Below are positions 2,642 to 54,480 of a stretch of 64,000 bases of DNA, one piece after another. Every line of letters begins with the position of its first letter. Position 1 is the stretch's first letter. The position numbers and the translations under genes are program-made. Below the pieces are notes generated by a model. The model worked only from the letters and a program-made list of their open reading frames with translations, had not been told where the DNA came from and made no database searches. This DNA is from Actinernus sp. WN-2022 (taxonomy: Eukaryota; Cnidaria; Anthozoa; Actiniaria; Actinernidae): contig JAOWCC010001501.1 in the NCBI GenBank assembly GCA_030867875.1, positions 23,371,036 to 23,435,035 on the forward strand, written 5' to 3'.

Positions 2642-3964
2642 CTAATCAGTTGCTAACTCAATTATGATTGCTCCTCCACACGCCGTCTCGTATGCTCTCG
2701 TCACCTTGTATCCTATTTTAAAACTCATCTTCTCAAGGAAATCCATCCATTCACTCTTGCTTTTGTTACTTCCACCAAAAGCAAACGCGTGAATATTTAA
2801 AAAGCCAGGCTGCAACCCATTCTCGCCTATCAAATTCTTGTCGTCTCCAGCCTCGGCGCTGAAGCGGTTTATGACTAGAAAACGGCCACCTTTAGGAGAG
2901 AAGAGAGATCGGCAGTTCTGCAATATAGCAGAACAGTGTTGTGGATCAAAACTCACAAACAAATTCTTGGCAATGATTGTATCCACTTTTGGCAGCTCAG
3001 GAAACGGTTCAAAGAAATCATGTGGTACAAGTTGGATGCGATTGTCTGGGATTCCAAATTTGGTAATCGCTTCTCGGGCTTTTTCTATCACCGCGGGTAG
3101 CTCAACTAGAATACCCTGAATGTGCTCACACCCGCGCTGCTTTAGAACAGAAGCCAGGAACGATCCCATACCGCCTCCGACATCCATAAGTCGTGTACAC
3201 GATGACCAAGGAAATACGTCGAAAATACTCCTGGAGGCAAAGGACTTGTGGTGAACTTGCAAGTTGGTATGATGTGTCATCGCATGGTTGTAGTTTTCTA
3301 AATATTCCTCTCTTCTCTCCTTGCTTCCAATCGCATGTTCACTGCATCCAGGGCGCATTTTTGCAGTATCGTATAAAGGGTGGGTTTGTTGCCCATTCAT
3401 GTAGTGAAAAGGGTCCATTCCATGTGCAATTAGATGGGCTGGTTGACCTGTCTTGACAGCTTGTGGGAGCGCCAACATGGCCGCCCAGTTCTCGTCGCTA
3501 CAGTAGTAAGCAACCATAGAGCCCAGGCTCGGCCCTCGGTCTTTTCTCAGTAGCTCCATTGCATGGTTCTTGCTAAAATGTTTGTTCGGTAGCTCCTTGC
3601 CTATTCCCCACTGCGCCAGTACTCGCATGATGGGGTAAAGCTGTTCAGTAGAACTACAACCAGCGTGTTTGGCCACGTCGTCGATACTGATCGTTGTCTC
3701 CTTCGTGTTGCAGAGTATTTCAGGGATATTGAGTCCCACCAGAACACCAAGACACCGATTCTGCCACATACCATGAAACATGGACATGATAACTTGTTCC
3801 TCTGCACTGTGTAACTGGCTGACGTTTTCCATTTTCAATCTGAGTGTGAAAAATTTTTGGTCTTTGAAAGTAGCCTGAATTTCAGCCGTCTCCTCTGGGT
3901 TCGTTCCTCCCGAGAGAGTCGAGTCACAACCAGAAAACCTGGTAGTGATTTTTGATTGGTTCAT
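2642..3964 (-). CDS. O-methyltransferase, acetylserotonin/hydroxyindole OMT-like
   Basis: This is a single-exon 440-residue protein of the SAM-dependent plant/animal O-methyltransferase_2 family, which includes acetylserotonin O-methyltransferase (ASMT). Visible features are an N-terminal dimerisation/winged-helix region (about 50-140), the SAM-binding motif DVGGGMG at 261-267, VELP at 287-290, DFF at 316-318 and a C-terminal HAFAFGG...EW block at 392-406. ASMT enzymes are usually about 345 residues; the first 44 residues here are extra. Met45 (base 3832) follows a good acceptor-like tract ending CAG at about 3841, so the annotated Met1 may be wrong, or a 5' exon may be spliced in. The usual ARxLHDW catalytic motif is replaced by AKNLFVSF (332-339), so activity is uncertain. 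The substrate cannot be assigned from sequence. No neighbour suggests a pathway. Confidence 0.85.
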   Translation of the reverse strand: MNQSKITTRFSGCDSTLSGGTNPEETAEIQATFKDQKFFTLRLKMENVSQLHSAEEQVIMSMFHGMWQNRCLGVLVGLNIPEILCNTKETTISIDDVAKHAGCSSTEQLYPIMRVLAQWGIGKELPNKHFSKNHAMELLRKDRGPSLGSMVAYYCSDENWAAMLALPQAVKTGQPAHLIAHGMDPFHYMNGQQTHPLYDTAKMRPGCSEHAIGSKERREEYLENYNHAMTHHTNLQVHHKSFASRSIFDVFPWSSCTRLMDVGGGMGSFLASVLKQRGCEHIQGILVELPAVIEKAREAITKFGIPDNRIQLVPHDFFEPFPELPKVDTIIAKNLFVSFDPQHCSAILQNCRSLFSPKGGRFLVINRFSAEAGDDKNLIGENGLQPGFLNIHAFAFGGSNKSKSEWMDFLEKMSFKIGYKVTRAYETACGGAIIIELATD

Positions 3965-4672
3965 ATTCTATAATTTCGCATAATTATCATAATTATCAGC
4001 CGAGGAGACGGCAGGATTCACTTTGGACTCGCGATTGTTGATCGTTGAGTTTCAGTGGAGTGATTGTCTTTGGCAAAGACCTTGAATTAGTAAGGAAAAC
4101 ATCTGGAAATGGATTGAAAGTGTCCTGCACAATAACCGGCCGACTAACTCTACTAACTGTAAACATGTACATTTTATCGCGTCGCGTCCTCGGGGTTGTT
4201 GACAATCGATTATTTGTTCACACTCGCAGTGGTAAAGAATGTCGCTACTCTATTCAAGGAACTGTTCTTTCCCGTAAATGAGTCTTCGTATTTCTTCGAA
4301 AATTCTCCATTACCCTTTCATGTTTTTCTACTTTTCTGTTGTATCATTTACATAGGTAATATCTCGTAGCTGTGTCGATTCGAACGGCAGATCGCGAGAC
4401 ATGTACAAAGATCAACGGAAAGACAAAGATCAACTGAACTTTGCCTCCAAATATAATATAACGATGTGTTGCTTCGGAAAGGCTTTCACAACATAAGAGG
4501 CACTTGAGAAGCAAATGGATGGAGATATATAATATAGGTAAGACTTTTATTTTGGTCGGCATAATCTCAAATAAATATTTCTCACGAACTTTTACTACCG
4601 CCGTGACAGTTTTATTTGCATGCATAAGTTAAATTGTTAATCCGCCTTGGCGTCACTGGACTATGGCGCGTA
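3965..4672. other. intergenic, upstream of the methyltransferase
   Basis: No gene is recognised. The short GAGGAGACGG(C) motif near 4003 repeats one inside the adjacent coding region. Chance open frames on both strands show no domain or splice pattern. Confidence 0.5.
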
Positions 4673-8323: not shown

Positions 8324-8364
8324 ATCACTGTTCGGACAAATATTCTCTGGGTCGTTTATTACTC

Positions 8365-10890
8365 GGGCTGCCTGTGGCAGCGCCGAGTCTTAAAATGCAA
8401 GTCGTTATTTTATTTATTTTTTATCATTGGTGTCAGACGGCTTCTGCGCATGCGTTAAAGGTCAAATTCGAACCAATCGGATTGCACTGTGCTGGTCACG
8501 CAAACAAAGGTTAGATTTCCTCAGGCGCGCTCAGATAAGAAAATTCAAAGCTCAGACTAGGCGAGACAAGGAGATATCAATTTCAAATAGTCATTGTCAG
8601 AAATCTATTCCATCGTGGGCAATGATGCAATACAACCTAAATTTGGGTCAGGTCCATGTTTTACGACAGAATAACCAGAGTCTTTCTACTGGATTCGGAG
8701 AGCTCGAGACATTATACAAGTCTGCTAATATGGGGAAAACTGAAACAAAACATGAACTTTGACGGCAGAAACCCTCATATTTGAGCCAAGCGGAATATTT
8801 ACTAGGCTCGGTTTCCAGCCGTGGGGGTTTCGGTGAGCCCGCGATCCTCTCCCCACTCACGGCTGGGCGCGCGAGCTGAGGCATTGTCGGTTTTTAGCCA
8901 ATGAAAAACTTGCCACTCAAATCCTGTCGCTAAATGTATTTGCATAATTTATATTGTAAACTTTTCAAAGCCGGACCAGAAGCTTTGAATCGCTGTTCCG
9001 AAAAGCGTTTAAATTTGCTTTGGAAAAGTTTGCTTTCGAATAATTCAAGGATTCACACAAGGAAACAGTAAGAGAGTTAGTTTTGGGTGAAGACACTGTG
9101 TCAGTACGCACCGGGTTTGGAAAGTCACTTGGGAAACCGTCACTTGTACCAAGCTCGAAGGTCACGAAACCCGTAATGTTCAGTCATTTCTTTGACTATG
9201 CAAGACCAGGTAGCCAATCTTACTTCAAAGAAAATTAGTGCTGCCTTCATCGGAGAAGAAAAGACGGACGACTCCATATTAAAAGAGTTATAAGAGAGGA
9301 AATTACGTCTGACTCAGGCCACGTTTACGCGTTTAACTCTGCGATCACAATTCACTTGAACATCGCTGCATCAAACGAGTTTTACAATTCTTTAAGTCCT
9401 ATGTATTTTTTTAAGTCTCCAAAACATACTCTACACAAGTACTGAGCGGTAATACTCGACTCTAGCTCAGAATAGTTCCGCGATAATATCTGAACTTTAT
9501 CCCCGTATTTCTGTCAACGAGGTGTCTTGAGCGGCACTATTATATTACAGACCTAGTTTCTCAATAATTTTAAATGGTGTCTGTTCAAGAGAATTCATTT
9601 CACAGTTGGAGTTTTAGTTTACTGAGTTCCAGTGTGTTTTGAAAGTTTAGAGCCTACGCTACAGTCGTGAAAGGAAAACGGCTTTTCTTGTCAAAACTCG
9701 CAAATTGAATAATATTGGATTTTAATTAGCTGACGTCACGGACACGGTGTGTTGACCGCGCGCCCAGCCGTTAGTGGGGGGAGGCTTTGGAGAAACGACA
9801 CCCCAACGGCTGAAACCGAGCCTAAATATTTACATGATCCGCTAAGATTTTTACAAATCTAATTAGTTAAGCAGATGTACGCAGTGTATGCCAACTGAAA
9901 TGCTGTGCTCGTTTTGTGGTTACGGCTCAGTGGGGCAACTATACGAACAAGAAGCATGAACTGCCAGCAAAGAGAGAGGAATTGATCGGAGACGTTAAAT
10001 TACGTTACTGTGAAGAGGATCAAAATTCAAGTTTTGTAGCTTGAGACTGTCTTCTGCCGTGACTCGTGAGAGAAATTGGAAAAGATCTAGCTGTTTCATT
10101 CAGACACTGGCAAATTTATTGAAAGCTACGGGCTTACTTTATGAGATTATTATTCATTGTGGAATGAAAGGAAACAGGTTAGCTGAAAGTTAAGTTCGAG
10201 GTAGGCTTCGACTTTCATTCCGATTCAGTGCATATGTACACGAAGGTGTCAGTTACGTAAGTACTGTAAGTAAACTCTTTTTGATTTGAATACATTTCCT
10301 CTCAGTTTGTCTGTTAATGTACTTTTCCTTCTAATTATCGCTTTATTTAACATCTGATTTAGAGTATGCGTACCTCAGAATAAATTATTTGAAAGGTCAA
10401 CTGAATTCTTGTGTCGATAGGCGCAAATGTTTTTTGTGAAACAGTCTGTGTATATGAGAAGCGGCTTAATAGAAGAGCTTTCTCATTTATAGGAATTACA
10501 ATTTTTTTTCTTGCTATGAAATTTATGTTTCATTTCACATTTATTCATACAGTTTTAGCCGGACATTTCCCCGAGTTTTTGATCTATTTTCAATCAAATT
10601 CAAAATCTGAATATGTCATTGTATTGCATTTATACACTTGAATGTGCCAGTATTCTGTTGTTCGAATCCTGCGTTATCATAGTCATGCCATAAAAGCGAT
10701 TAATAGACCAGTCTGTTTTTTCGACGTTCTCACTGGCGAATTAAAGCACGACTTGATACTAGTATTTCATCTTCAATCTCATGTGGCCCGAGTGAAAGCC
10801 CAGATGGGCTCTTGTTAATGATGAATTTAGGTCTATGTCAATTTGTTCCGAGTTAGCAATATTACTTATTTGTTTCGGACTTCCACTCTC
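8365..10890. other. intergenic, contains the Mutator-like insertion
   Basis: Apart from the element at 8803-9824, no gene or domain is recognisable here. Minus-strand sequence just beyond the ORF1 remnant (about 10780-10905) reads through a short LINE-like stretch before stops and may be decayed ORF2 sequence of a second LINE. Confidence 0.45.
8803..9824. mobile_element. non-autonomous Mutator-like element with 9-bp TSD
   Basis: The ends are inverted repeats of about 75 bp starting TAGGCTCGGTTTC(C)AGCCGT and including a shared CGGCTGGGCGCGCG block. The element is flanked by a perfect 9-bp direct repeat, AATATTTAC, at 8794-8802 and 9825-9833. Length is 1,022 bp. No transposase ORF is present. 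Nine-base target duplications and long TIRs are typical of Mutator-like elements; superfamily is an inference. Confidence 0.85.
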
Positions 10891-10905: not shown

Positions 10906-11718
10906 TCAGATAGATTTAGTATAATTGTTAAAATTTATTGCCAATTGTGAGATGCCTTTCTTGTTCGGATGAAGACCTTTGGAGTTGAGGCAAGTTTTAT
11001 CTAAGCTATTGTGTGAGATAATAGACCAACTTCGGGACTTACAAAAAGCACGTAGCGACTTATTTACATCGTGGACTTTAGCATTTAGCTCATCACTGTC
11101 AGATCGTTTAATAATTCCAGAGATCGCGATGCGAGTGTTCGGCAACTGATGTTCGATAACGGAACATAGATCTACAATGTTATTTGCAATTGTGTTGGCA
11201 GTATCTGATCTTAAATTGTTGGTACCTACGTGTACTATGATGTCTTCCGGAGCTTCACGAATGCTTGGCTTGAAGTAGTCATGCATATCAGTAGTTGTAG
11301 CTCCAGGGAAAGATCTAACTTTCACCTTCAAATCCGCATTTGACATCCTCCAGCCCTCTAATTTAGATATCATAGAGTCTCCTAAGATTGTAACATTACG
11401 CCGCTGGTGGTCTTGTGGCTTTCCAGTCTTGTTTGCCGGGCTTGGGCCAGTTGGGGTGGCATTCTGTACAGGGGACTGTCGTTCTTTGTTTTTTGCAGAC
11501 TTTGATTTGCTATTCTTGTTTCTCTTTCTCGTGACCGTCTGCCATTCTTGGTTCTCCTTTACCCCTGGAGTTTCGGTAATAATAATACTGTTTGTTTCCT
11601 CATTATTGTCGCTAGGGGAGCGCTTGTTGTTTTCGCCACTGAGTTCTCTCGTGATTATTTGTAATGCGACTCTAAGTGAATTACGTTCATCTTCTACAGA
11701 TCGATCGAACGTGGAGCA
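10906..11718 (-). mobile_element. LINE ORF1 remnant with SGNH/GDSL esterase domain
   Basis: The frame is open from about 11718 to the stop at 10906, beyond the first Met at 11373. The upstream part is a basic, polar linker. It is followed by an esterase block I (LGDSMI at about 11385-11368), a central GTNNL block (HVGTNNLRSD) and a C-terminal GLHPNKKG block. This is the SGNH-hydrolase architecture of CR1-type ORF1 proteins, thought to act in RNA or membrane binding during retrotransposition. An in-frame stop just upstream (about 11720) and the lack of a matching ORF2 downstream mark it as a fragment. Confidence 0.85.
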
Positions 11719-12220
11719 GGCTTATAGGTAGACTTTCTCAAAGTCCCTTAAAACGAGATTTTCATTTCCCACATTCGCTTCTCTTAAAACGAGATTTTCA
11801 CTTCTCTGGTTGATTTTCACGCTTCGCGCTCGTTCTCAGAGGAAAAGATAAGTGAAAAGAGGTCGACTTGTAGCAAGTCTAGCTTATAGGATAAATCGCA
11901 ACCGTTTTAGCAAGTAAGTCAACATATTTTGCCTTTCATAATTCCCTATGGGTTTTTGCGTAGTTAGGCTTTCCTAGATAATGCCATTCGCTAGTGTTTT
12001 CATGTTCAGAACAAGGAGTCGGTGGGTCAGTTTTATTTGTGTATGTGAAACTACTGATATCTATACAGGAAACTTCAAAAAACCTCAGGCTTAGCTAAAA
12101 TCAGAAGAAACACGTATCCCTTACTTTGTAGAGCTCTACTAAAATCAAATTGTTTGATTGTGATCATATATGTCTTGATTGTGTTTGATTGTGTTTGATT
12201 GTGTTTGATTGTGATCATAT

Positions 12221-24507: not shown

Positions 24508-25203
24508 GTGCAAGGACCAATTCGGACGAAATCTCTAAATGATTACACATCAGATATTAAGAAGCGATGCCAACGTTTAGGAATCCCCGTGAGCGAACGA
24601 ATTCATTATTTCATTCAAGGGCTACAGCCTGAGATAAAACATTATGTAATTCTACAACAACCTAACACTTTAGAAGAAGCAGAGAACGCCGCTAAACTTA
24701 AAGCCACCATAGTTGCCCAAACCACGCCAGCAGTAACTAAGGCTGATATTCTGGCTTTACAAGAGGGTTTTATCCAAAGGCTAAAGACCGAACAATTACT
24801 TCCCCATTCGGTAGGTTCAATAGCAGCTTATGAAGCCCCTACTTCAACCTTTACCCCTAACTTTCGTAATTCTCAACAAGATAACTCTCGCGACACTTCT
24901 AACTTACGCCAAATCATCCGCGAGGAACTTAGGCAAATTTCCAGTAATCGCGAACACGATTACAACCTTCGTCCTAGGGACAGGCCTTATTTTAACGATA
25001 AGGGAGACTTCGGTCGAACTACACGTTCAACCGATGGACAGAATATTTGTTTCAATTGTAAGAAAGTTGGACACCACTATCGCAATTGTAGGTCCCCTCG
25101 CCGTTTTAATGATCCACGCATTCCTCAAAACCAACCAAACGGTAATCAAAACCGTGGTTTTCCAGTCCGTTCCTCACAACGGCAAAATCACCCTTTAAAC
25201 TAG
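24508..25203 (+). CDS. Ty3/gypsy retrotransposon Gag (5'-truncated)
   Basis: The 231-codon frame contains the end of a retrotransposon capsid domain (about residues 8-80: DYTSDIKKRCQRLG, HYFIQGLQPEIK, then TLEEAENAAKLKA) and a basic nucleocapsid region. The latter has one CCHC zinc knuckle, C-x2-C-x4-H-x4-C, at residues 181-194 (CFNCKKVGHHYRNC). The frame opens at a GTG with no Met, and homology begins mid-domain, so the 5' part and any 5' LTR are missing. It ends at TAG 25201-25203, immediately after a TTTAAAC heptamer that would shift ribosomes into the pol frame. It serves as structural protein of the virus-like particle. Confidence 0.88.
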   Translation: MQGPIRTKSLNDYTSDIKKRCQRLGIPVSERIHYFIQGLQPEIKHYVILQQPNTLEEAENAAKLKATIVAQTTPAVTKADILALQEGFIQRLKTEQLLPHSVGSIAAYEAPTSTFTPNFRNSQQDNSRDTSNLRQIIREELRQISSNREHDYNLRPRDRPYFNDKGDFGRTTRSTDGQNICFNCKKVGHHYRNCRSPRRFNDPRIPQNQPNGNQNRGFPVRSSQRQNHPLN

Positions 25204-25239
25204 AACGGGTTTTCGAGTTTCGGGAGGCTACGAAAACCC
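25194..25239 (+). promoter_or_regulatory. -1 programmed ribosomal frameshift signal (gag-pol)
   Basis: In the gag frame the heptamer T TTA AAC (25194-25200) has the classic X XXY YYZ form and directly precedes the gag stop. After a 6-nt spacer, GGGTTTTCG (25207-25215) pairs perfectly with CGAAAACCC (25231-25239), giving a 9-bp stem with a 15-nt loop. The -1 frame entered at the heptamer is the same frame as the pol ORF (codon starts divisible by three in both) and stays open until the MITE at 25411. Confidence 0.82.
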
Positions 25240-25410
25240 CAATTGCGTTTAATATAAACACTTTATTCGGACCAACAAACTCAGAAGAGAGAGATAACCA
25301 AAATCAAACAACGAAACACTTTACCAAAGCACACGAAATTCAAATGAATAGGAAACCAGCTGTGAATACTAATGAAGAGATTATCGATAACAATCACTCA
25401 AATGGGATTG

Positions 25411-25951
25411 AAGTGCTTCTAACCCTTCTTGACATTTTTCTACCTATGAACCTTTGAAAGGTTTTGAGTACTTCTGCGAAGAAATATTTGGTTTACAAAG
25501 AATACTCTATGTTCTACGCTTGTTTGAAATGGTGAAAATTTGACCTTTGCTGACCCATGACCGCGTTAGAAAAAGCCTGGGTCGATTACCGGGTCGACGT
25601 CATCTCATTAATGCATTATCCTCCATGGCGCCTTTCTATCACAACAACATCGATTTATAGAAAATATACACAGTTTGTGAGTTGTTAGTAAAGAAAAAAG
25701 TCATTTTAGACAAAATGCTAAGTACGTATTCAAATTATTGCAAAGTCGAATTAATGAGATGACCTCTACCCGGTAATCGACCCAGGCTTTTTCTAACGCG
25801 GTCATGGGTCAGGAAAGGTCAATTTTTCACCATTTCAAACAAGCGTAGAACATAGAGTATTCTTTGTAAACCAAATATTTCTTCGCAAAAGTACTCAAAA
25901 CCTTTCAAAGGTTCATAGATAGAAAAATGCCAAGAAGGGTTAGAAGCACTT
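25411..25951. mobile_element. 541-bp foldback MITE inserted in gag-pol
   Basis: The arms are long inverted repeats beginning AAGTGCTTCTAACCCTTCTT. They share blocks such as CCTTTGAAAGGTTTTGAGTA, CGCTTGTTTGAAATGGTGAA and GACCCATGACCGCGTTAG. The flanks are TG and TA, consistent with a decayed TA duplication. Element plus 2 bp is 543 bp, which preserves the pol reading frame on either side, but the insert carries stop codons. Confidence 0.82.
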
Positions 25952-26159
25952 TAACACTTTACAAAGGAGTGCTCCGGTTTGCCGCGAAAGTACTGAATTA
26001 AGTATTCCGGCTCGTTTCTTAAACAGAGACTTTACTTCAGATCAAATACATTTTTCGCTCAGTGACACTGTTTTCCCGAACAGTGATCCGGATCATTACG
26101 ATCTAGAACATTTTCAACCCATAAATTCAACCCAACATGAAGAAGAACCAATTCATAGT

Positions 26160-29100
26160 TTGAATGAAATATCATTAAATTATCACCAAGAGAACCATTC
26201 ACAAGACGAACAACCCATTTCCACTAATGACCACTCTGTAGTTCAGCTAGAACAGGTAATTTCACAAAGTAATAATCAACACGAATCAAATGAAGCAATT
26301 TCACAAGCCCAGCATGTTCCTACACTCACTCATAGCATTTCTGAGGAAATTGCAGCCACAAATGAAATTCAAATTCATTCGACAATAGAACCATTCGCCT
26401 GTCACAATACGACAACCATAGAACATAAAGTTTTGTCGATACCAGATAATTTTAGCCACGTAAAGGTAAACATAGACGCCCAACCTATTCCCACAATCAA
26501 TATTTTAAGTACAGAACCAGAAGCACCTGTCGTTCGTGCCACACATTCGAAGACAATGAACCTTACAAACCCGAATTTGCACACTGAAAAGAAAAAGGAC
26601 AATAACAACATAGCATCAACAAAGGTAGAAAGGTTACCATGGCGAAAGACCATAAAACAATGTACAGCTACCCTATTACAATGTTCATTTTTACTGGTAG
26701 TTTGTAAAACATTGCCAGGCTTCTTTCATGGCCTATTATTCCTCGTTAGCTTAATCACTACATTATCAACTAATAACAAATACGCCAACGCTCTTTATTC
26801 ACACCGCACGAATATTGTTGAAAATTCAAGTCAATCTGCCACAAGTAGCAGTGATATAGACATAGATAGTCCCAATAGTAATACAATGACAAATTGTGCT
26901 CAGAAAGCAAATACCAAGAAACCATGTTTAGCTGTCGTAGATGATAACGATCCAGCAATAGTTACGGAATCGGAAACCGTAGAAGTCCCAAATTTAAAGA
27001 ATACGAATACGTTACAAGAAGACAAAGATATTCAGGCCAATTACATTATATATGAAGATACGAGTTTTACGACTACAGATAGTCCACAAGAAGTTAAAGA
27101 TTTTAAGGCCGTTCAGATTAGAGAAAATTCAGAGTTTAGTAACATTACGCATGATGATGATATTCAGGGACATAAATTTACAAATAATACGGGTGATCGT
27201 AAGCCCCAGATTATAGATACGAAGGGACATATCAATACAATAGGTTTTCAGAATACAACAAGCAATCTCACAATATCAGGTTCAATAGGTGATTTTCAAT
27301 TAACTTTCTTGGTAGATACAGGCGCAGCTGTTACAGTTATTGGTAAAGACACATGGCAGCGAATTCCCGAACTAAGTAAACACCCACCTGAACTTTCAAC
27401 TTTAAATATGCTCCGGTCGGTCAGTGGACAAGATATTCCTGTTTTAGGACAAATTTTAGTTCCATTCACAATTGATAACAGAGTATATCCTTTCTTAGTC
27501 TATGTAGCTGACAAAGTTTTATACGATGTCATTCTCGGAAAAGATTTTTTAGAACATTATCAAGCGATAATTGACTTGAAGAATCACACTCTTGATATAC
27601 CACCCGCTAAGATAAACAATCCAATTAACCCTAGCCAGGTAGAACAATGTACTGTCCACGCGTTAGAAACGTTTGTGTTACCACCGCGCACTGAAGCCCT
27701 TGTTATCGCTAACTTATCACAACAATTTCCCCCAGGGAATACAGGACTTATTGAACCAAAACGATCTTTAGCCGAACAACACAATATATGTGGTGCTTCG
27801 ATTCTAGTTACAATATCAGGAACTGGCACCGTTCCGGTACGCCTTTTGAATCCCACAAATGCACCGGTTACGATCCATGAAGATACAACCTTAGGCCGGT
27901 TTTCACATGAACCGACCCCGTTGGTCGTTGCTGCGCTTGGTAACGCTACTACATCACACATTAGTAATTCTGGTTGCTCACCAACCACAGAAAATACCAC
28001 TAAGGACATTTTAGTCGATTTATCTAAATCAGATCTCTTGCCATGTGAGAAAGAACAATTAACTTCGCTTCTGAGTCAATACCGAGACGTATTTGCGTAT
28101 GATAATAATGAATTGGGACGCACGTCTATTGTTAAACATACAATTGACACCGGCGATAGTAAACCTATTCGCTTACGCCCATACCGCACAGTTGACAAGC
28201 TGCGGGACAAAGTTGAAACACACGTACAAGATATGTTAGAGAGAGATATTATCCAACACTCGGCTAGTCCTTGGGCCAGTCCTGTTTTACTCGTGAAAAA
28301 ATCTGACGGTTCAGATAGATTCTGCGTGGACTACAGAAGGCTAAATTCGGTAACTGTTAAGGATTCACACACACTACCTCTAATTGCTCTCGCACTAGAT
28401 TCCCTCGGGGGAGCCAAATACTTTTCCACCATGGATCTGATGTCCGGCTATTGGCAAGTCGAGTTAGATGAAGCCACTAGGGACAAGTCCGCTTTTATTA
28501 CATATGGAGGACTATATGAATTTAAAGTTATGCCTTTCGGACTTTGCAATGCTCCTGCCACCTTTCAACGGCTAATGGAGAGCGTTTTACAATCTCTGAA
28601 CTATAAGATCACATTGTGTTATTTAGACGATATCATAGTCTTTTCACCTACATTCGCTCAACACCTCACCGACCTTACTGAGGTTTTACAACGGTTACGA
28701 CATGCTAACATTAGACTGAAACCTAGTAAATGTCGATTTGCATCTACAGAGGTAGATTATCTAGGACATGTTATCTCCAAGGATGGCATTAGACCCAATC
28801 CCGATAAAATTCGCGCGGTGTCTGAATTTCCCGTGCCAAAGAATCTCAAGGGCGTACGAAGTTTCCTAGGTTTAGCAAATTATTACCGCCGTTTTGTTCG
28901 TGATTTCGCTAAACACGCACAACCATTGAACCGGCTAACTCACAAGGATGTTCAATTCGAATGGACAACCGACTGCCAGAGCGCTTTTGATCTATTAAAG
29001 CGCGCATTGGTAAGTGCTCCCATTCTGGCATATCCAGATTTTGAACAACAATTTTTAGTGCATGTGGATGCAAGCGCAACCGGGATAGGAATGGTACTAT

Positions 29101-30929
29101 CTCAGGTACAGAATGAACGCGAAGTCGCCATTGCATATGCCGGGCGAGATCTCAATCCGGCAGAACAGAACTATAGCGCTACCGAGAGGGAAGCACTCGC
29201 AGTTATCGCTGCTATTAAGAAATTTCAACCATATTTACAAGGCCAAAAGTTCATTCTCTTCTCAGATCATAGACCGCTTACGTGGCTCATGAATATTAAG
29301 GATCCAATAGGTCGATTAGCGCGTTGGAGTTTGTTAATCCAACAATTTGATTTTGAAATTCAACATAAGCCTGGTAAATTAAACACAAACGCGGACTCAC
29401 TGAGTCGCAGACCTTACTCAAACATAGGCGCACTAGATGTACCAGGAGTGGCGATTGACCAAATCCAGGACCTACAAAAAAGAGATCAAGCTCTTTATCC
29501 TATCATCCAGTATTTACAGGATGATATTTTGCCTGAAACGGACGAAATAGCAAGGAAAATAATACTCGAGTCTGCAGAGTATGTTTTTGATGACAATGGA
29601 CTGCTTTATCATTTATTTAAACCTACTGGGAGTACACGAAAGGACATTCACGCACAATTAGTCATTCCAAAGACCTTACAATTTGAAATATTAGTCGCTA
29701 CTCATGACAGCCCACTTGCGGGACACTTAGGCATTCATAAAACCTATGAGAAAGCGAGAGAACGTTATTTTTGGAAGGGTATGTTTAGAGATTGTGAGAC
29801 ATGGGTCCAGTCGTGTGTAGATTGTTCAATGAAGAAGAATCCTAAAACAATACGAAATGCACCGATATTACCCATTCCAGTCGAATCAGCATTCGAACGA
29901 GTAGCTGTGGATTGTTTAGGACCTTTCCCTGTGACTAATTCAGGAAATAGACACATAGTCGTCTTCACGGACTACCTAACAAGATGGCCTGAAGCTTTTC
30001 CAGTACCTTCTATAGAAGCAGCCACAATTGCTAGACTTTTAGTAGACGAAATAGTATGTAGACACGGCGCTCCTAGAACCTTACTGTCCGACCGAGGTAA
30101 GAATTTCTTATCGAAACTCATCAAAGAAGTTTGTTTTATGTTAAACACAAAGAAAATCAACACTTCTTCTTACCACCCGCAGACGAACGGGTTAGTCGAA
30201 CGTTTTAATGGGGTCCTCGCCCACTCTTTATCTATGTACGTAAGTAAAGACCAAAAAGACTGGGACCTTTTCATCCCCTCGGTTCTTTTCGGGTATAGGT
30301 CATCTCTAAGTGTAGCCACATGTGAAAGCCCGTTCTATTTACTCTACGGTAGAGAACCTAGGTTACCAATAGATGTCTCTCTTTTGCCTCCAACGAATCT
30401 GTCACGCTCCGTAGCGGAACATCGCAAAAGAATTGTACAAAATATTGAAATAGCACATGAGATCGCTAGAACTAATATTCAATTAGCACAGCAAGTAATG
30501 AAGGAACAACACGACCGCCATGCTCGTACTCCAACTTTTCAAGCAGGTGACCGGGTTTGGGTATTTACGCCTAGCCCTGCACCGGGTTTAACTAAGAAAT
30601 TACGGCATTTATGGCACGGACCATATCGTATAGTTGAGAAACTTTCTCCAGTTCACTTTGCTCTCCGCACATGCGACAACAGGCGCATTTCTGCTATTAT
30701 TCACGCCAATAGATTGAAACCATACTTTGACCCCGGTCAAAGACCGCTAGAGGTCCCCGTCGACGCCGACGATTCCATGCATCACTGCCTATGTGAAGAC
30801 GAATTACCTTTAGATAGTTTTGAAGATGAGCCTGTTATGGATCACCCAACTATAGAAGCGCGAGAACCGGATCAACTTGGATGGGATCTAATCAGCAAAT
30901 ATATGCGAATCCCTTCCACGGTTTTTTGA
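26160..30929 (+). CDS. Ty3/gypsy Pol polyprotein (protease, RT, RNase H, integrase)
   Basis: The 1,589-codon frame encodes the replication enzymes in Ty3/gypsy order. These are an aspartic protease (LVDTGAAVTVIG, about residue 386), reverse transcriptase (about 670-860, with FCVDYRRLN, PFGLCNAPATFQ and catalytic YLDDIIVF near 821), RNase H (HVDASATGIGMVL, about 967) and integrase. The integrase has an HHCC zinc domain (about 1181-1222), catalytic Asp/Asp/Glu near 1250, 1310 and 1346, and a GPY/F module (LWHGPYRIVEKL). No chromodomain follows. About 370 residues precede the protease and include a strongly hydrophobic stretch near 165-200. The Met at 26160 is only the first after the MITE; the frame reads back to the MITE edge and, beyond it, to the frameshift site. 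The stop lies inside the foldback element at 30911, so the natural C-terminus is lost. Confidence 0.93.
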   Translation: MNEISLNYHQENHSQDEQPISTNDHSVVQLEQVISQSNNQHESNEAISQAQHVPTLTHSISEEIAATNEIQIHSTIEPFACHNTTTIEHKVLSIPDNFSHVKVNIDAQPIPTINILSTEPEAPVVRATHSKTMNLTNPNLHTEKKKDNNNIASTKVERLPWRKTIKQCTATLLQCSFLLVVCKTLPGFFHGLLFLVSLITTLSTNNKYANALYSHRTNIVENSSQSATSSSDIDIDSPNSNTMTNCAQKANTKKPCLAVVDDNDPAIVTESETVEVPNLKNTNTLQEDKDIQANYIIYEDTSFTTTDSPQEVKDFKAVQIRENSEFSNITHDDDIQGHKFTNNTGDRKPQIIDTKGHINTIGFQNTTSNLTISGSIGDFQLTFLVDTGAAVTVIGKDTWQRIPELSKHPPELSTLNMLRSVSGQDIPVLGQILVPFTIDNRVYPFLVYVADKVLYDVILGKDFLEHYQAIIDLKNHTLDIPPAKINNPINPSQVEQCTVHALETFVLPPRTEALVIANLSQQFPPGNTGLIEPKRSLAEQHNICGASILVTISGTGTVPVRLLNPTNAPVTIHEDTTLGRFSHEPTPLVVAALGNATTSHISNSGCSPTTENTTKDILVDLSKSDLLPCEKEQLTSLLSQYRDVFAYDNNELGRTSIVKHTIDTGDSKPIRLRPYRTVDKLRDKVETHVQDMLERDIIQHSASPWASPVLLVKKSDGSDRFCVDYRRLNSVTVKDSHTLPLIALALDSLGGAKYFSTMDLMSGYWQVELDEATRDKSAFITYGGLYEFKVMPFGLCNAPATFQRLMESVLQSLNYKITLCYLDDIIVFSPTFAQHLTDLTEVLQRLRHANIRLKPSKCRFASTEVDYLGHVISKDGIRPNPDKIRAVSEFPVPKNLKGVRSFLGLANYYRRFVRDFAKHAQPLNRLTHKDVQFEWTTDCQSAFDLLKRALVSAPILAYPDFEQQFLVHVDASATGIGMVLSQVQNEREVAIAYAGRDLNPAEQNYSATEREALAVIAAIKKFQPYLQGQKFILFSDHRPLTWLMNIKDPIGRLARWSLLIQQFDFEIQHKPGKLNTNADSLSRRPYSNIGALDVPGVAIDQIQDLQKRDQALYPIIQYLQDDILPETDEIARKIILESAEYVFDDNGLLYHLFKPTGSTRKDIHAQLVIPKTLQFEILVATHDSPLAGHLGIHKTYEKARERYFWKGMFRDCETWVQSCVDCSMKKNPKTIRNAPILPIPVESAFERVAVDCLGPFPVTNSGNRHIVVFTDYLTRWPEAFPVPSIEAATIARLLVDEIVCRHGAPRTLLSDRGKNFLSKLIKEVCFMLNTKKINTSSYHPQTNGLVERFNGVLAHSLSMYVSKDQKDWDLFIPSVLFGYRSSLSVATCESPFYLLYGREPRLPIDVSLLPPTNLSRSVAEHRKRIVQNIEIAHEIARTNIQLAQQVMKEQHDRHARTPTFQAGDRVWVFTPSPAPGLTKKLRHLWHGPYRIVEKLSPVHFALRTCDNRRISAIIHANRLKPYFDPGQRPLEVPVDADDSMHHCLCEDELPLDSFEDEPVMDHPTIEAREPDQLGWDLISKYMRIPSTVF

Positions 30930-35313: not shown

Positions 35314-35929
35314 CTAGACGACAAGAAAGAAAAAACGGGAATCTCTTTAGACTGCGGATTAATCACTGGGCGGGTTAATAGATAACACGCCTCGGCTAAT
35401 AATGTTTTAACGGGCTTCGCACTCGTATAGAAATGAGCGGAAATAATTGGGACGGCTAGCAGTCTAGTGTCTGTTCGTTAAAGTTATCGCAACACTGTTT
35501 TAACAAACATATGGCCATCCCAATAAAATGTTTTGTTACCATCGTCCTCTGACTCGTGATGGTAGATCGGTCGGTCGGTAAAAAAAAAACGTTAGGGGAT
35601 CTGGAACCAAGTCTCGCGTAGAAATCAGTTTCGTGTATTACTCAACTACTGTTTCAGTTCTACTAGTTGTGGATTGGCAATTTGCATGAAAAAAGGCAAG
35701 AAACTAATACGTAGAGAGCTCGATCGGAAAAGAATATTCCACTATGGTATACGATCCCGCGTTAACATGTAGACGTTGGCTGCAAGACTCTTTTGTGTAC
35801 AACCTAAACATTTTAGATATTCCAAAATTTAGATTTAGGGTTCTCAAATCTCTGTATCAGGCCAACCAGTTGAAAATAGAATCAGGTAGAAAACTTTGAA
35901 AGAATATTGGGATTTTTTCGTATACGTAC

Positions 35930-36281
35930 CACCCATCAGCACACTTGCGCCCACTGTACTCAGAGCAGTAATAACGCGGTCTTCCGGGTTGAACTCTGGT
36001 GACGTCACGAACGCATGCGCAATATGTGCGCTATAGTCCACCGAGAAGCCGATTGCCATGACAAGATTTATCATGGACACAGAGTTCAGGGACACTCCCC
36101 AGAGCCACATAAGGGCGAACAGCTCGAATATCAGGGCCACGAAGTTAAAGAAGACAATCATAGTAACAGTGAAGCTGAGAAGAAACGGCCAGGTGACGAC
36201 GAAAACCGTCACGCCGGCGATTACCAGGTTACGGATAGTCTCCGTCATAATTATTACGTACTGCTCGAAGTAAATAAAGGA
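35930..36281 (-). CDS. patched-domain protein, exon 2
   Basis: The exon is bounded by an acceptor TTTCCGTTGCAG ending at 36282 and a donor G|GTACGTAT at 35930/35929. It joins exon 1 in phase 0 and exon 3 in phase 1. It begins SFIYFEQYVIIMTE, the conserved segment before the seventh helix in patched-type proteins. It then carries four or more hydrophobic helices and the AIGFSVDYSAHIAHAF motif, in which the Gly-x3-Asp of the proton-relay helix is intact. Confidence 0.92.
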
Positions 36282-36731
36282 CTGCAACGGAAATAAATTG
36301 AAGTATGATTAATAAAGATAATGTATTTATGGTGTGCATAGTTTGCTCAGAGTTTATCTGTTGTAGGTTTTTTTTAAAGTGCAAGTAGCGCCATAAAACA
36401 ACAACAACTCTTTTTGCTCCAAATTCTATTTACTTCAGTAGTCTAAATTGGTTTTCTTCGAGAGACTGGAGCAGTAATTCAACTAGAATAAAAGTTACCC
36501 GAATTGCGGGATTGGTTCATCTTGTGATGTCACTATTGAAAGCTACGGGTTTTATTGTTGCAGTTTTCTCTTGGGAGGGAGTTGATTATCTTATGACGTC
36601 ACAAGATCCATGACAAGTAACCAAAATTAGGGATTAAATGTCACAAATTTTACAAAATCTGCAAGATTAATACCGTTTTGTGAGAAACAAACACAATTAT
36701 AGTAAAAAAATGTTTTTTATTTGACATGACA

Positions 36732-39487: not shown

Positions 39488-39617
39488 AGTTTTGAATATT
39501 ATATGACGTAATTTATGATGAATAAGAGTGCAGTCAATGAATGAAAATGCGGTTTGTTAGCTAGAAAATATAGCATGATCTACCTAGAAAGAGCAAAAAA
39601 CACTGAATTGTCCTTAC

Positions 39618-41636
39618 CGGTGCAATTGCGTAGACAGACATACCCGAGTGCTTGGCGAGGTCACTTCTGAGCGTAAGCATCGCATCTTTTTGAAACATGG
39701 AGCTGGATGAGCCCTTCATGTAGCACAACACACGAGAAGCCTTGACTGTCGTGTTATCAGCAGACAACTTCACATCCTCTTTAAAGTGCGCATATGCGGG
39801 AACACCCAAAAAAATATTTAACGCTGGCATAAAGTTGGACCCCGTGATTTCCATCCGGGACATTTGAGAAAATGACGTCATCGCAGCCATCCAGGAGAGG
39901 GAAGTGTTCTCATAGTAGTTGTTTGTTGTAGCGATGGTTGAGAGATTGAGGACTTGAGATTGAATAACTACATCTTCGTATTTTGTCTGAACGTTATTGA
40001 TAATACTGACCTCAATATTTGAAGAAAAATATTTTTCTTCCATGTTTATAAATTGCTTGTAGGGGGAGCCATCTTTGGCCAAGATGCTCCTATCAAAGCT
40101 CTGGCTAATCTCCTTGGCTCCAAAAACACTTGCTGTTACAAGCCCTACTGACACTAGTACTACAAGTAATCGAACAGGTGGTAGCATTAGTACCTTAGCC
40201 CATGCTTTCATGATATTGTTGGAGATCTGAGCACGAGGCTCGTCCCAGGCTGCCTCGCCCTCTTTTGGCGGAGGAGCGTAGCAAACTGGAAGGCAGTCTC
40301 GTCGGCCAGTTTTTATTCTTCTGACGTCAAAAGTGAGGAAAGCGACGAAGAATGTGATAACCATGAAATACGAAAAGGTCACTGCCAAAGCTGCGTAGAT
40401 ACAGAAATACCTGATGGAATTAAACGAAGTCGATGTACTGACAACAAAGGCGACCAGATCCGTAACGGTTGTCATGGTAACGGTAGCACCGGAATGAGAC
40501 ATGACCGTTTTAACAGTGTCTACTACAGTTAACCGATTGTCCTGACGATCCAACTCATCGATAATGATAAACATATCGTCAATGCCGATACCTAGAATCA
40601 GGAACGGTAACACTCCTACGATACTTATAAACGGGACACCCACGAGCATCGAGAGCCCCAGTCCCGCAAGGATCCCGAGACCGACTGCGAGTATCCCGGC
40701 ATTGGCAAGCAAGGAATGACCGACTAACGGGTTTCTGAACTTGCCTAGCAATGTACATGCAAAGGAAATCATAAGAGTGAAAGTGATGCTGATCAAAGTA
40801 ATGTCAGACATGCTACTTTCTGAAGTGGCATCGCTGAGACTTCGTCCAGCCGAGTAGTACATCGAGGAACAAGTCAACTTATCCTTTAGCGAAATAAGCT
40901 TATCAATGAACTTCTTCTCCCATTCAAAGACTTCGTCAAATTTGTCATCCTCGCCATTCATTGAGTAGGAAATCTGTATTGCGCTTGCACTTTGAAGGGC
41001 ACCAGATGTTTTGTTCCACTTGACATTGCCAAACATTCGAGGAAAGTTCATATGAACTGGGCGACCATTTCGCATTAGCTGTCCAAGGTTTTTATGAGCT
41101 GATGTGAGCTGGGATAAAACGTCAACAACATTACTTGAATTGAAGCCAAATACTTCCAGAGGATTAATGAATAGACAGGAGTCAGTTGTCCCTTTTAAGC
41201 AATATTTTTCATAGTTTTCTAAAGATGTGACCTCGGAGTGGATATTGAGGACATCGAGAAGGCATTGCCTTGTGAGGATGGTATCACCCTTTTGAGGAAT
41301 CAACAAAACCTGCTCTTCTCTGGAGAGAATTGGAAAATACTTCTTAGCCCTCGTAAGATCTTTGATGGCGATGCTGTCCTGAGGGATGTAGAGCTTCTCG
41401 ACACGGTCCTCGGAGTGAAGAAAGGCAAAGCCGCCTATTCCACATCCGGAGGCAAAAACACTACAAAGAATTATGGTTATCCACGGATACCTGGCTATAC
41501 CGCTGCCAAGGGAACCGAAGACTCTTTCGAAAAATTGACGAAAGGCGGAGAGGCAGCGAGAGCACATATTACAGCACCTGGAACAGGATGAAGATTTAGA
41601 CCTGCAAGAAGATTGGATGTATGCATAAGATTTCAA
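39618..41636 (-). CDS. patched-domain (PTCHD3-like) membrane protein, exon 1
   Basis: This large first coding exon gives 673 residues. It has a Cys/Ser-rich cytoplasmic N-terminus, a first helix (about 47-70), an extracellular loop, and a sterol-sensing-domain helix bundle (about 275-445) containing GIGIDDMF near 350. After an RRIKTGRRDCLPVC linker come a helix near 500 and a second luminal domain. The exon ends with AIAP at donor CCG|GTAAGG (39618/39617). The joined exons would give about 850-890 residues, the normal size for PTCHD3/ptr-type proteins of the RND superfamily, which move lipids or sterols across or within membranes. Orthology to vertebrate Patched itself is unlikely given size and the PTCHD-like loops. 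The ligand is unknown. Confidence 0.93.
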
Positions 41637-41960
41637 CAGTAGGGCTACTGAACGGGGCAGTCAAAATTTGGAAGTGCTCGTTGTTTTAGGCCTTTTGCTC
41701 GGATGCTCGCAAAAAAGATTTTGTGTGCTCGAATTACTCGTACTTGCTTTTTCCCAAGGTGATCGTTTACTCTATTTTTGTATAGAACATTGCTCGCAGC
41801 TGTGATAAAATAAAATTGCTCGTGCTCGCCCTAAAAACAAGATGCTTGCCTGCTCGCCAATGCTCGAATTTACCGCCGCACACATGTTTACACACATTTT
41901 ATTTTTCTATTCTAATAGATGTAATTTACAATCTGACTGGTCCGCAGGTATAGCTTAAAG

Positions 41961-49306: not shown

Positions 49307-50780
49307 GTACTGCCGATCAGATGGCATGATATATTTTGTATTTTGTGATATTCAGTTCTCGTATTTATGTGCATAACACTGTCACCATTGTACCTCATAA
49401 TCCTGAAAATACTTACCAATCGCCACCGTACCTTGTTATGGATCTGGTATATCCTTCAATACAAAACAACGCAAATCCTACGCTTCCACGCTTGAAGCAT
49501 CATTAATACTTATGTCTACTCTACAACATAGATATATTAGATTCATCGATGTTTTGAGTTATGGCTATTCGGTACGAAGTAATTGCTGGTATAAAGACCA
49601 GTAATTCAACGAAGTTGCTATGGAAACAGGTATCAGAGGCTGCACGCAAGCTGAGGGTATACGAAATATAATTGACATGCAGTCAAGCCTAGTCCTTAAC
49701 TGAAGAATATAATTATTTATGGCGTAATATGTATGTTGGGTGGTACTGTACCGGGTTCGGGATTTACATAAAAAAATCTCGAATTTACCGAATTCCGTGT
49801 TATAGTAGACTCGATTACCAGCCGTTTGTATGAGCCCGCGTTCCTCGCCTCGTAACGGACTCGCGCAACGGGCGGAATAGAGCCTGGGATAGACGATTCA
49901 GAAGAATCAAACAGGGAGAAGGGTTTGAGTCATTGCCACAATAACTTGGAAATCCGAGTTTAGGACCTTTTTCACCCCGTAAATACGGGTCCGGTTCCTG
50001 ATTCCATGGCTACACATACCTATACCATGTGAAATAAAATTATTATCCTGTCGCTAATATCCCATTCACACCCTGGCGTTACTGAGCAGTTAAAAACCTA
50101 AACTACAGAACCGGCTGTTTTTGAGGTAGTTTTTACTACACATTAAAAAAATTAACAGTGAAATTCTGGTACGTCTGTAGTCCAAAACTCGTTCTTTACT
50201 TGCCTGGAGCAACTGAATGGCATGTATGGTGAGTTGTATTTCTGCGCATGTGAGCATTTATGTATGGAACTTGCGCACTATAAATGTCACTGGTCTAAAA
50301 AAATAATTCCTCCCCCCTCCTTGGATAAGCCTATAAATAAGCCATAGTAAGTGTGCTTAATTAAAAAATTATGGGGCCCCCTATAAAAGAGAAGCATATA
50401 AAAAATTTGACTCCCCTGAATGGGAGCATAACAAATCGTGACCCCCCCTCCCTACAAATCTAGTAGCTCCCCCCACCGCTAAATAATGTCCGGTCACTAA
50501 GAGAAATTTAGAGCAACTTGAAACGGTTCGATTTATGCACTGCAACCGCGAAATCATGTTTCTAGGTAAGCTTTTCTAATCCACTTTAATCATCGAAAAA
50601 GTTAAAAAAAAGTATACCAGGACATTCACATAGTGATTTCTCTTCTATCGCTTTCCACGGCGGTTAGCATACCTCAATCGACTTTAGTTGATTACCTACC
50701 AGTGTTATTTTTGTAGTTTTGTTTAAAAAAACTTGAAGGTTCAATTCTTTTGACAGTGCCTCTTCAAATGAGAAATAACA
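49307..50780. other. intergenic, unit-B remnants and repeats
   Basis: Blocks at 50060-50185, 50500-50640 and 50695-50760 match unit A as noted above. No coding sequence is recognised. The unit ends just before the 3' end of the small secreted-peptide gene. Confidence 0.5.
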
Positions 50781-50805
50781 CACGAGTCGCGGCAAGTTGT
50801 TCGCG

Positions 50806-50811
50806 TTTATT
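50806..50811 (-). promoter_or_regulatory. poly(A) signal of the small secreted-peptide gene
   Basis: AATAAA on the minus strand lies about 160 bp downstream of the stop codon at 50969, a plausible 3' UTR length. Confidence 0.55.
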
Positions 50812-50968
50812 AAGATCCAAGGCACGGAAGAATAAATATATTACAGTCTGTTCGTTCTACAAATCTGATTTTTTTGATGGCGTTAGTCTAGCTATTTTAA
50901 TAATTTTGTAATCGATTCTTCCGTTTTTCTTCTTCAAAGTAATTCTGACTCGGCGCATGTTCAGTTCT

Positions 50969-51049
50969 TCAGTTGTAAACATCAAAGTTCAGAGACTTCG
51001 CGACTTCATGTAAGGCAAAAACGGCTCTCTTGAGAAGCTCCTTGTTCCT
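50969..51049 (-). CDS. small secreted peptide precursor, exon 2
   Basis: The acceptor TTTGTATATAG ends at 51050 and the exon joins exon 1 in phase 0. It adds 26 residues before TGA. With exon 1 the precursor has 80 residues. The joint creates Lys-Arg (54-55), and a further Lys-Arg (61-62) would release an 18-residue C-terminal peptide starting AVFALHEV and ending FDVYN. An alternative AG two bases later would shift the frame and stop after about 13 residues. Nothing in this region matches a family I recognise. Confidence 0.65.
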   Translation of the reverse strand, partial: RNKELLKRAVFALHEVAKSLNFDVYN

Positions 51050-51833
51050 CTATATACAAACAACAATAAAATATGAATCATTACTATTAATTTTGAACTT
51101 TTTCTACTAAAAACAACATATTCAATGGGAAAATACAGCACTTTCGATCGCGAGGTCTTGAAAAGCTGCGTGCCAAATGCACTCGCTTGCCACTCCCTAA
51201 AGACTTACCAAGGGAAGAGTGACGTATCTACCTTTCTTTTAACTAAATACCTTTGTAGAAATTGTTCTTCTGATATAATCAATTTCGTTCCCAGACTTCT
51301 TTCGACTAGTTATGACGTCGTGGCCCCAAAACCGCGAAGAATCTGGTGCCTAACTCATATTTGTTGTTTTCTAAACTGATGTAAACATCATTTAACGTTA
51401 CAAAAGTCTTATATTTATGCCTAAATGATAACAATTCCAGTGTTTTAAGGTCTTCAAGTATAAAGTTTCTAAAAAATTCACCAAATAAGGAATTTAAAAA
51501 GTACGAATAACTACATACATAGAACGCAATACGGTAACTTTACGGCATGCCGCTAGCTTTGGGTTTATTTCGGCCGGGCTACGGTATAGATACGATACGG
51601 CTATGATAGAGCAGATTTCGTATGAGTACATGGGACAAACTACAGCACTGACTACAGCACGGTTACCGTACGACATGCCGTGACATTGAAATGGTTTCCC
51701 TTTTTAACAGTTTTGCCGTAATAAGTTTTTTTCGGTTATCCAAAATTTGCTCTAAGTAAAATTAATAACGCCTTTTGTAGAACATGAGTATACCCTAAAA
51801 TACTTTTATACATTGTCACAGCAATAATCATAC

Positions 51834-51995
51834 CTTTTCCAACGCCATTCGTTTCTTCAATAAATAACTACAGCTCGTAGGTTTTCTAGTTATTGGATCT
51901 CGACAAGATTCATCCATGCCAAAACTATCGGCTTCTGCCAGTAGAGCGGCGCCAATGATGATTAAGAATACGAAAACGAGGAAGAACTTAGCCAT
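51834..51995 (-). CDS. small secreted peptide precursor, exon 1
   Basis: The exon encodes 54 residues. It starts at ATG 51995 with a textbook signal peptide (MAKFFLVFVFLIIIGAALLA, cleavage likely near residue 22). An acidic start of the mature part (DSFGMDE), two cysteines at 31 and 42, and a basic KKR at 47-49 follow. The donor AAG|GTATGA lies at 51834/51833, and the intron of 784 bp runs to 51050. The pattern (signal peptide, one possible disulphide loop, several basic sites) is that of a secreted peptide or prohormone-like precursor. A host-defence, signalling or venom role cannot be distinguished from sequence. Confidence 0.7.
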
Positions 51996-52062
51996 GTTGT
52001 GTACTCTTCTAGTTCACTTGACTGTGTAAATTTCTCTGACCCAGAAAACGCCTAACGAGAGA

Positions 52063-52070
52063 CTTTTATA
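52063..52070 (-). promoter_or_regulatory. TATA box of the small secreted-peptide gene
   Basis: TATAAAAG on the minus strand lies 68-75 bp upstream of the ATG at 51995. Transcription about 30 bp downstream would give a short 5' UTR of roughly 45 nt. A strong TATA box suits a highly or cell-specifically expressed gene. Confidence 0.6.
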
Positions 52071-54480
52071 ACGAGAACAAAAATTCATTAAGCATTTGCT
52101 TGCAGCCATATGGGCAGCAATATGGGTACGTTACATTATAGTTGCCGCCATAAATTAACAAAATTGATTATTTTTTTGGCACAAATTTCATTATGATGGC
52201 ATAATTCATTGTTAACTGTTAACGTTTTAGAAACACCTTGAGATATTTAAAATAAGTCTATTAAAATCTCATATTGCTCCATATATCAGCAGAGCCGAAG
52301 TTCTACTGTCCTTTTTGCTTTGTAATATTTGTATTTGACATATTTTGATCATCTGTGCTATGGGGGAGCCTGTTTGTAATGACTTCAATAAGGCTTCAAT
52401 ACGGAAACAACCGTTTTTAACTCCCTATAAATTATGAAATTAGTAACAATAGATGAAAGGCTGATTATACGGTTGATGATTATACATTGGTCCTTGCATA
52501 ATATTTCCAGTATTCTACTATTTGCACGCCCAACCTTCATCTTGGTATACAAGTTAACTTGTATATCTATAACTTGGCATGCCATTAAAAATTCATCCAA
52601 TCAGAAGGCTGAAAAGTGGTTGCATATTCGGCGGTATCCCACGAGTTGTGTGCAACGGCGTTTTCCCGCCATAATGTGCCGGGCGCGTCCGTTACAGCTT
52701 CCAGTTATTTTCCCGCTGAAAATTCGTTATAGCGGAGCTCAGAGAGCGAAGCTCCCGCTTCGGCCCGCGCGAACGGAGCACCATAGATATAGGATGAGAT
52801 CAAAAATTGGCTGACCACGCCCGACCCCGACGCCCGACGTCTGTTGAAGCGGCTCTGGTCGAACAAGGCTTTGTCCAGCAGATAGCGATGATTTTTTCCT
52901 TTTTTTTATTTCATTTTGCGTTTTCTTCTTTTTTCTTCTAAACCTTTTGCACTGATTCCCTTGATCATTCTACCAATTATTTTTGTGCCGGTTTAATTTT
53001 TATCCTTGTTTTCTTTATATAATTCATAAACGATAAGTTATCGTTTTTCTCGGGTCGTTACCTCAGTTCAGATAATTGGAAGCTCCGCTTTTAGGCTTGC
53101 ATACACCTCATTCATAAGGGCGTGGTCTCTGTATTTTCACAGTTAAGCTACATGTTCAATGTATGAAAAAAACATCCTTGCCATGCGAAAGAGCATATGA
53201 ACATTGGTGATTCTGTAGAATTTGAGTATTGTAGCACAAAAGGCTGTAAAGTTACAGCAATTTGAAATTAGAGAGATTTGTATGAGAAATACCATGTAGG
53301 CCTTTACAGCCTCGCTTTCATGTATTTATACATTTAAAATGACAATAACTCAACAGCAATTTGAAACATTGCTTTCAAACTGTGGCCAATTACTAATTTA
53401 AGTACGATCTTTCATGTGGTAGCAATAATTTCTCTGTACACATTAATCTTCCAATTTATGCAAATTAGGTGGCGGCCATTATGAATGAGGTCTAAAATTA
53501 TATATATTACAGACCATGTCGGGTATGTGTTTCGTTCAGCTTCCTCTTCCATTAATTTTTTCTGTCCTTAATGAATTATGGATGAGGAAATCCCATTGTT
53601 TTCATGCATGGGATGAGATAGTTATGTAATGCTTTCTCGTGGTATACCGTGAATATCCCACGGCGATTCAGATTTTGTATACACACTCGACTAAAGGTTC
53701 ATGTGTATAATGAAAAATCAAGATATTTCACGGTGTACCGACTCGAATGTATTGCAAACTAATATGAATACCAAAGAGAGCATACGTAAGATAGGGAATC
53801 TCCAATACGCGTGCTTGTGCGATGTTAATGTCGAATAAAACATATTTTAGTAACCGGAAGCAGCTGAGAAGTGCGCGAGCGCGCGATAATCTCGTGGCGG
53901 TAAAATATTTTCGCGCCTTTTTGCGCCACGAGACTGTTGGCATGAAGAGCAGAGCTTGTTCAACGCTACGATCATCAGCTGATTATATTCTTTTGCTTCC
54001 GGTCCGAATAGAATTAGCCAATCAGCGCCATTGCTATCACATTGCCAATAGTTCCATTTGTTGATCTGAAACTTGATTTTTTTCTTTTCTACATTTTTGA
54101 CTTACATAATATTGTATTTAAATCTTTCATTCCCATATATTGTATGATTTATTTAGTCAAATAAACGAACTTAAACTGGGGAATAACATTACTTTTGTAG
54201 GGCATTGGAGCCTGGGCATATGTAGAGGAAATCGCGAGTGCTATACGGCATTTATAGGCACTGGGTGATATTTGGAAAGTTCTAATAATTGCACCAGGGT
54301 GGTCCCTTCATGTAGACAACACATTAATTGCTATCAAAATACAATAGAATTAACACAATACAAAACAAAAGAACGAAATACACAATACAATAGAACACAA
54401 TACAATTTGGTAGTAATTCATGTCTGCCTATACGAAGGGAGATTTGGGAACTTTCAAAATTATTATATCACTCAGTGCCT
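52071..54480. other. intergenic, repeats but no gene
   Basis: No domain-bearing frame is present. A hairpin with CTCGTGGCG and CGCCACGAG arms lies at 53889-53934, probably a MITE remnant. Sequence at 54310-54415 is a decayed A-rich (ACAATAC)n tract like a LINE 3' tail on the minus strand. The GC-rich patch 52660-52860 looks like a dispersed-repeat end. Confidence 0.45.

Follow-up and report, generated by a model that had tools for sequence, protein, structure and literature searches.

A small family of predicted secreted two-exon peptide precursors in the genome of a sea anemone

The window analyzed here is a 64,000-nucleotide stretch of the genome of Actinernus sp. WN-2022 (assembly GCA_030867875.1, contig JAOWCC010001501.1), which carries on its minus strand a short two-exon gene for a predicted secreted peptide precursor; all gene parts are listed by their window positions in Table 1. 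A sequence-only reading of this DNA had proposed such a gene with a TATA box, a start codon, a splice donor and acceptor, a stop codon and an AATAAA polyadenylation signal, and each of these elements was read again in our study. The 784 bp between donor and acceptor, the phase-0 join and the limit of 54 codons per exon agree with our structure of 54 plus 26 codons, whose joined product has 80 amino acids (aa); the AATAAA is present as well, 158 bp past the stop codon and not 160 bp as first given. The strong signal peptide of that reading corresponds to a markedly hydrophobic core (mean Kyte-Doolittle value 3.16 over residues 5-20 of the product; signal peptides were judged in this study by hydropathy only), with cleavage presumably after AEA, where we take the -3,-1 rule to place it, and the two cysteines described as 11 residues apart are residues 31 and 42.

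The gene belongs to a family within its own genome, which we searched over 1,390,003,549 bases in 1772 contigs. A protein search returned at least 10 matches, the DNA of exon 1 found at least seven places, and the DNA of exon 2 with the 3' untranslated region (UTR) found at least eight. From these we identified at least seven full copies, the window copy included (P1 to P7), and at least one copy consisting of exon 2 only (P4b), distributed over three contigs. Exon 2 lies downstream of exon 1 in every full copy, across introns of approximately 0.8 to 5.7 kb, and all seven keep the TATA box, the ATG, the hydrophobic signal, the GT and AG splice sites, the phase-0 join, the stop codon and the AATAAA; the acceptors of P3, P5, P6 and P7 were placed by eye, at an AG directly before an Asn or Asp codon. 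Such shared retention goes beyond what chance would give. No premature stop occurs in any of the seven, and no broken full copy turned up in the DNA searches of the genome, whose counts are lower bounds and which do not favor open frames. The only partial copy is P4b, whose exon 1 was found neither in the 9.5 kb upstream nor by the genome searches. A weak match on contig C1009 (E 0.64) contains two internal stops and was set aside.

Because the intron is retained, the copies are DNA duplicates and not retrocopies. P1 and P2 are surrounded by a duplicated segment (Table 1), and P3 and P5 have 8 kb in common at 97% identity; judging from these shared segments, some copies at least arose through segmental duplication. 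Eight places in 1.39 Gb are few for a transposable element. Between the diverged copies, the introns align only at the donor end and in short pieces, and the P2 protein is the same as that of P1 except for a change of Leu18 to Arg inside the signal sequence.

Special attention was given to whether the frame is coding, and two types of evidence suggest that it is. First, the gaps: in nucleotide alignments, all 16 pairwise gaps in exon 1 (P1, P3, P4, P5, P6) and all 10 in exon 2 (P1, P3, P4, P6, P7) are multiples of three, as against 28 of 71 in the 5' flanks and 3' UTRs. The coding-exon gaps amount to about six distinct events, and six triplet gaps out of six at the flank and UTR rate would be expected in about 4 of 1000 trials, a rough figure given that events recur between pairs. 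Second, the preservation of the frame: in neutral simulations with UTR-like rates, a lineage kept it intact in 3-30% of cases, and four lineages did so with a probability that ranged, depending on the rate used, from 8e-3 to 1e-6, where values above approximately 3e-4 assume no insertions or deletions and those that include them are at most 3e-4. In addition, second codon positions are the least changed in all six pairs compared.

It is important to note that several observations weigh against a family of secreted peptides. An excess of changes at third positions is not significant in any of the six pairs (p 0.13-0.47), and third positions exceed first positions in only one. The UTRs and flanks are conserved to roughly the same degree as the coding part, differing by 20-29% (3' UTR) and 23-35% (5' flank) among P1, P3, P4 and P7 (six pairs), so the constraint on the protein is weak or relaxed. 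The signal of P2 has an arginine in its hydrophobic part, and the tail is not clearly more amphipathic than shuffled sequences, 67-170 of 1000 shuffles being as good in the five members computed. All of these except the last, together with the lack of exon 1 of P4b in the stretch read, would also suit duplicates in decay, or a non-coding RNA that is spliced and contains a reading frame by accident. This explanation is nevertheless very unlikely, considering the open, in-phase frame of all seven full copies, the nucleotide-level gaps in threes and the absence of any Rfam match at gathering score over positions 50600-52400. The ratio of non-synonymous to synonymous rates (dN/dS) is 0.51-0.82 in 17 of the 21 pairs, those that are not recent duplicates, with the pairs of P7 including a loop that cannot be aligned; among recent pairs it is 0.27 for P1-P2 (two differences), 1.28 for P3-P5 and 2.90 for P5-P6, and P3-P6 shows 11 amino-acid-changing against 0 silent differences (one-sided p 0.049, uncorrected). 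The best reading of these results is a real, fast-evolving protein, and some copies may be decaying. The window gene is very probably a real protein-coding gene, and its product is, with high probability, secreted.

The precursors measure 76-80 aa, and each of the seven contains a single tail. Their predicted mature chains have 54-58 residues, with a net charge of +3 to +8 as calculated for five members; an acidic stretch at the N-terminal side of the chain is clearest, by eye, in P1 and P2, and the charge split looks weak. In all seven, the predicted mature part contains two cysteines, spaced C-x8-C in five copies and C-x10-C in P1 and P2; the signal of P7 adds a third. Across the seven copies, M-A-K, F-V-F and a few later residues are invariant in the signal, and L-L-K, L-x-E, S-L and D in the tail. 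The aligner also marks P39, C42 and K48 as invariant loop columns, which are meaningless for P7, since its first cysteine was set against the second of the others.

Three basic sites had been proposed to release an 18-residue C-terminal peptide, and they fare differently. The dibasic K[K/R] of exon 2 is present in all copies (KR in four, KK in three), and the [K/R]KR of exon 1 in six of seven, P7 having a KR nearer the junction that is not assignable as the same site; the junction KR (residues 54-55) is not conserved, as only P1 and P2 carry it. A signalling precursor, cut by a convertase at its dibasic positions to yield a C-terminal peptide of 18-19 residues acting on a receptor, would account for the dibasic site before the tail in every copy and for the conserved tail residues (L, E, S-L, D). 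We consider this explanation somewhat unlikely: the site is KK and not KR in three of the seven, and the family shows paralogue expansion and fast change, which are less usual for hormones. The alignment shows no glycine directly before any dibasic site or at the chain end in any of the seven copies, which argues against a classical amidated cnidarian neuropeptide. Like the RFamide and LWamide precursors described in passages of PMC3040730, those of the family have a signal peptide and basic cleavage positions; unlike them, they have one peptide per precursor with no repeats, and no glycine for amidation at the basic sites or the C-terminus. Effectors of a defense or venom type appear more likely than amidated neuropeptides.

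An odd member of the family is P7. Its signal aligns with those of P1, P3 and P4 at z 12-16, and the start of its intron, right behind the coding segment, is also homologous to theirs (z 5-8). The stretch between signal and donor, however, compares with that of P1, P3 and P4 at z -0.6, 0.1 and 0.8, the level of shuffled sequences, whereas the same stretch gives z 13-19 in pairs among P1, P3 and P4. C-x8-C and a KR close to the exon end are nonetheless present in this unrelated segment, and a genome-wide search for the segment found only its own place. The P7 stretch would be either a replaced segment or a case of extreme local divergence. A further possibility, which we consider unlikely, is that the family is a sea-anemone-specific chassis (promoter, signal, donor, tail and 3' end) with a disulfide-loop insert of approximately 84 nucleotides that can be exchanged wholesale, as in P7; if so, the insert would yield new mature peptides in one step.

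The loop varies most, being unrelated in one copy, and the signal and tail change less; for this reason the peptide most likely meets variable targets outside the animal, such as microbes, prey or predators. The precursor would enter the endoplasmic reticulum and lose its signal, the C-x8/10-C disulfide loop would close, and the mature chain would then be secreted whole, or a furin-like convertase would cut it at the dibasic position before the tail. An alternative is a small secreted structural or housekeeping protein (of mucus, cuticle or capsule lumen, or a carrier) that is not processed further and is no effector. Such a role would agree with the signal sequence, with only two cysteines in the mature part and with the tail, which weakly matched designed chains of helical and coiled-coil type; given how rapidly the family diverges and the unrelated loop of P7, we regard it as quite unlikely. 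Our best reading is that the family is restricted to its lineage and makes secreted peptides with a disulfide loop and a helical tail. As a whole, the proposal of a small sea-anemone family of secreted peptides with a defense or venom-type effector function is about evenly poised, and the effector role itself, as opposed to signalling, is put forward tentatively, at or just short of that level.

The sequence-only reading had recognized no family, and our searches of Pfam, solved structures, Rfam and a large protein collection likewise gave no convincing match. The window product matched 0 Pfam families at E<=0.1, hence no sea-anemone toxin profile, and among solved structures only designed repeat, helical or coiled-coil chains and chance-level matches were returned, with no natural structure. 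Across seven members, DUF3819 was the sole Pfam match at E<=1 (best E 0.15, in two of the seven) and was judged to be due to chance. In a collection of 5.8 billion proteins, the single product found no candidate sharing three words, and the seven-member alignment found none at E<=1 among the best 7991 candidates by shared words; this search needs shared 5-residue words, and annotations may lack short genes of several exons. The absence of a protein match is informative because the collection includes several sea anemones. The sequence strings of the family were absent from the published text searched, and the literature on the topic held nothing recognizable as the family among the matches listed.

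The closest parallels are in manner. According to passages of PMC10945409, the arminins and periculins of Hydra are likewise short signal-peptide precursors with paralogues partly clustered by duplication, fast-changing and with no homologue found outside their lineage, and most Hydra-restricted antimicrobial peptides have a bipartite charge and a complex cysteine pattern. The anemone family shares the signal peptide, the small size (76-80 aa) and the organization as a paralogous family (seven copies), and appears to differ in having only two cysteines and a weak charge split, the comparison being one of descriptions and of the absent Pfam match. No membership in the Hydra families is claimed. 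Known sea-anemone toxin folds have more cysteines, in a framework of four or more; the family has two in the mature part of all seven copies, and no Pfam or natural-structure match. The BDS, kaliseptin-like and unassigned toxin-like venom peptides described in PMC3040730 come from the same animal order as secreted precursors of multigene families; according to that paper, variation in toxins falls on the mature part, with conservation of the signal and propeptide. Our results indicate that paralogues within the same genome can lend support to a short multi-exon peptide gene that has no relative in the databases, from genome sequence alone. They also bring to light a family of secreted peptides that had not been studied, and in which one loop differs strikingly, in a probable deep-sea anemone; according to PMC10598428, stranded tentacle and trunk RNA-seq of this animal is deposited as PRJNA889077.

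Table 1. Positions of the gene, its copies and other features (window positions unless a contig is named)
Feature	Position	Strand	Remarks
TATA box TATAAAAGTC (TATAAAA)	52064-52070	-	
Predicted 5' UTR	51996-52040	-	start inferred from TATA spacing
Start codon ATG	51995	-	
Exon 1 coding sequence	51834-51995	-	54 codons; phase-0 end at GT donor; six further copies
Predicted signal peptide MAKFFLVFVFLIIIGAALLAEA	51930-51995	-	predicted cleavage after AEA; hydropathy and alignment of copies
Cys31 codon	51903-51905	-	exon 1 translation
Cys42 codon	51870-51872	-	exon 1 translation
Intron, GT...AG	51050-51833	-	784 bp; read from sequence
Exon 2, lysine-rich helix-like tail RNKELLKRAVFALHEVAKSLNFDVYN	50969-51049	-	26 codons and TGA; joins exon 1 in phase 0
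AATAAA polyadenylation signal	50806-50811	-	158 bp past stop
Duplicated segment around P1 and P2	47772-53857		about 6 kb; five collinear pieces, 96-98% identity
P1			window copy
P2	within C540:23340001-23350000		same contig, 75.7 kb from P1
P4 and exon-2-only P4b	same contig as P1		about 1.3 Mb from P1
P3, P5, P6	contig C942		
P7	contig C635		
O-methyltransferase-like frame	2642-3967	-	441 aa, open; PF00891
LINE-type frame	5474-8389	-	971 aa; endonuclease and reverse transcriptase
GDSL-lipase-like frame	10906-11721	-	271 aa; PF13472, E 1e-8
Ty3-capsid/zinc-knuckle frame (weak), then pol-like frame	24508-30929	+	pol-like frame 1661 aa
Possible further piece of Patched-like gene	35847-36308	-	only a sub-threshold ACR_tran match
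Patched/NPC1-like gene	39561-41660	-	sterol-sensing domain

A two-exon gene for a short secreted precursor, in an anthozoan, is supported by the seven parallel copies, by the order of the mitochondrial genes and by the proteins most similar to those of the host. In mitochondrial contig C144 (35,652 bases), a 15,968-base unit, as measured by the spacing of two cox1 genes, is assembled in slightly more than two tandem copies; its genes were named by eye from translations, except cox1, which was identified with Pfam. The cox1 frame is uninterrupted by an intron, nad1 and nad3 lie inside nad5, and there are tRNAs for both Trp and Met, the former labeled SeC (anticodon tca) by ARAGORN. An atp6 frame follows nad4L within 225 bases, with nad4 and nad6 further on. 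Passages of PMC10261974 report the two-gene nad5 intron in Actiniaria, Antipatharia and Zoantharia, and only tRNA-Met in Zoantharia; the order differs from that given for black corals in PMC11311739, so that Actiniaria are left. A point against this placement is the length of the unit, which falls below the mean of 19.0 kb (s.d. 1.2) listed for Actiniaria in PMC10261974.

Among the other genes in the window, the Patched/NPC1-like gene is 57% identical to the Actinia tenebrosa patched domain-containing protein 3-like, and its best named relatives, among the best 120 of 232 matches, are from Actinia tenebrosa, Exaiptasia, Actinostola and Nematostella. The pol-like frame shows a below-cut-off dUTPase match between its protease and its reverse transcriptase.
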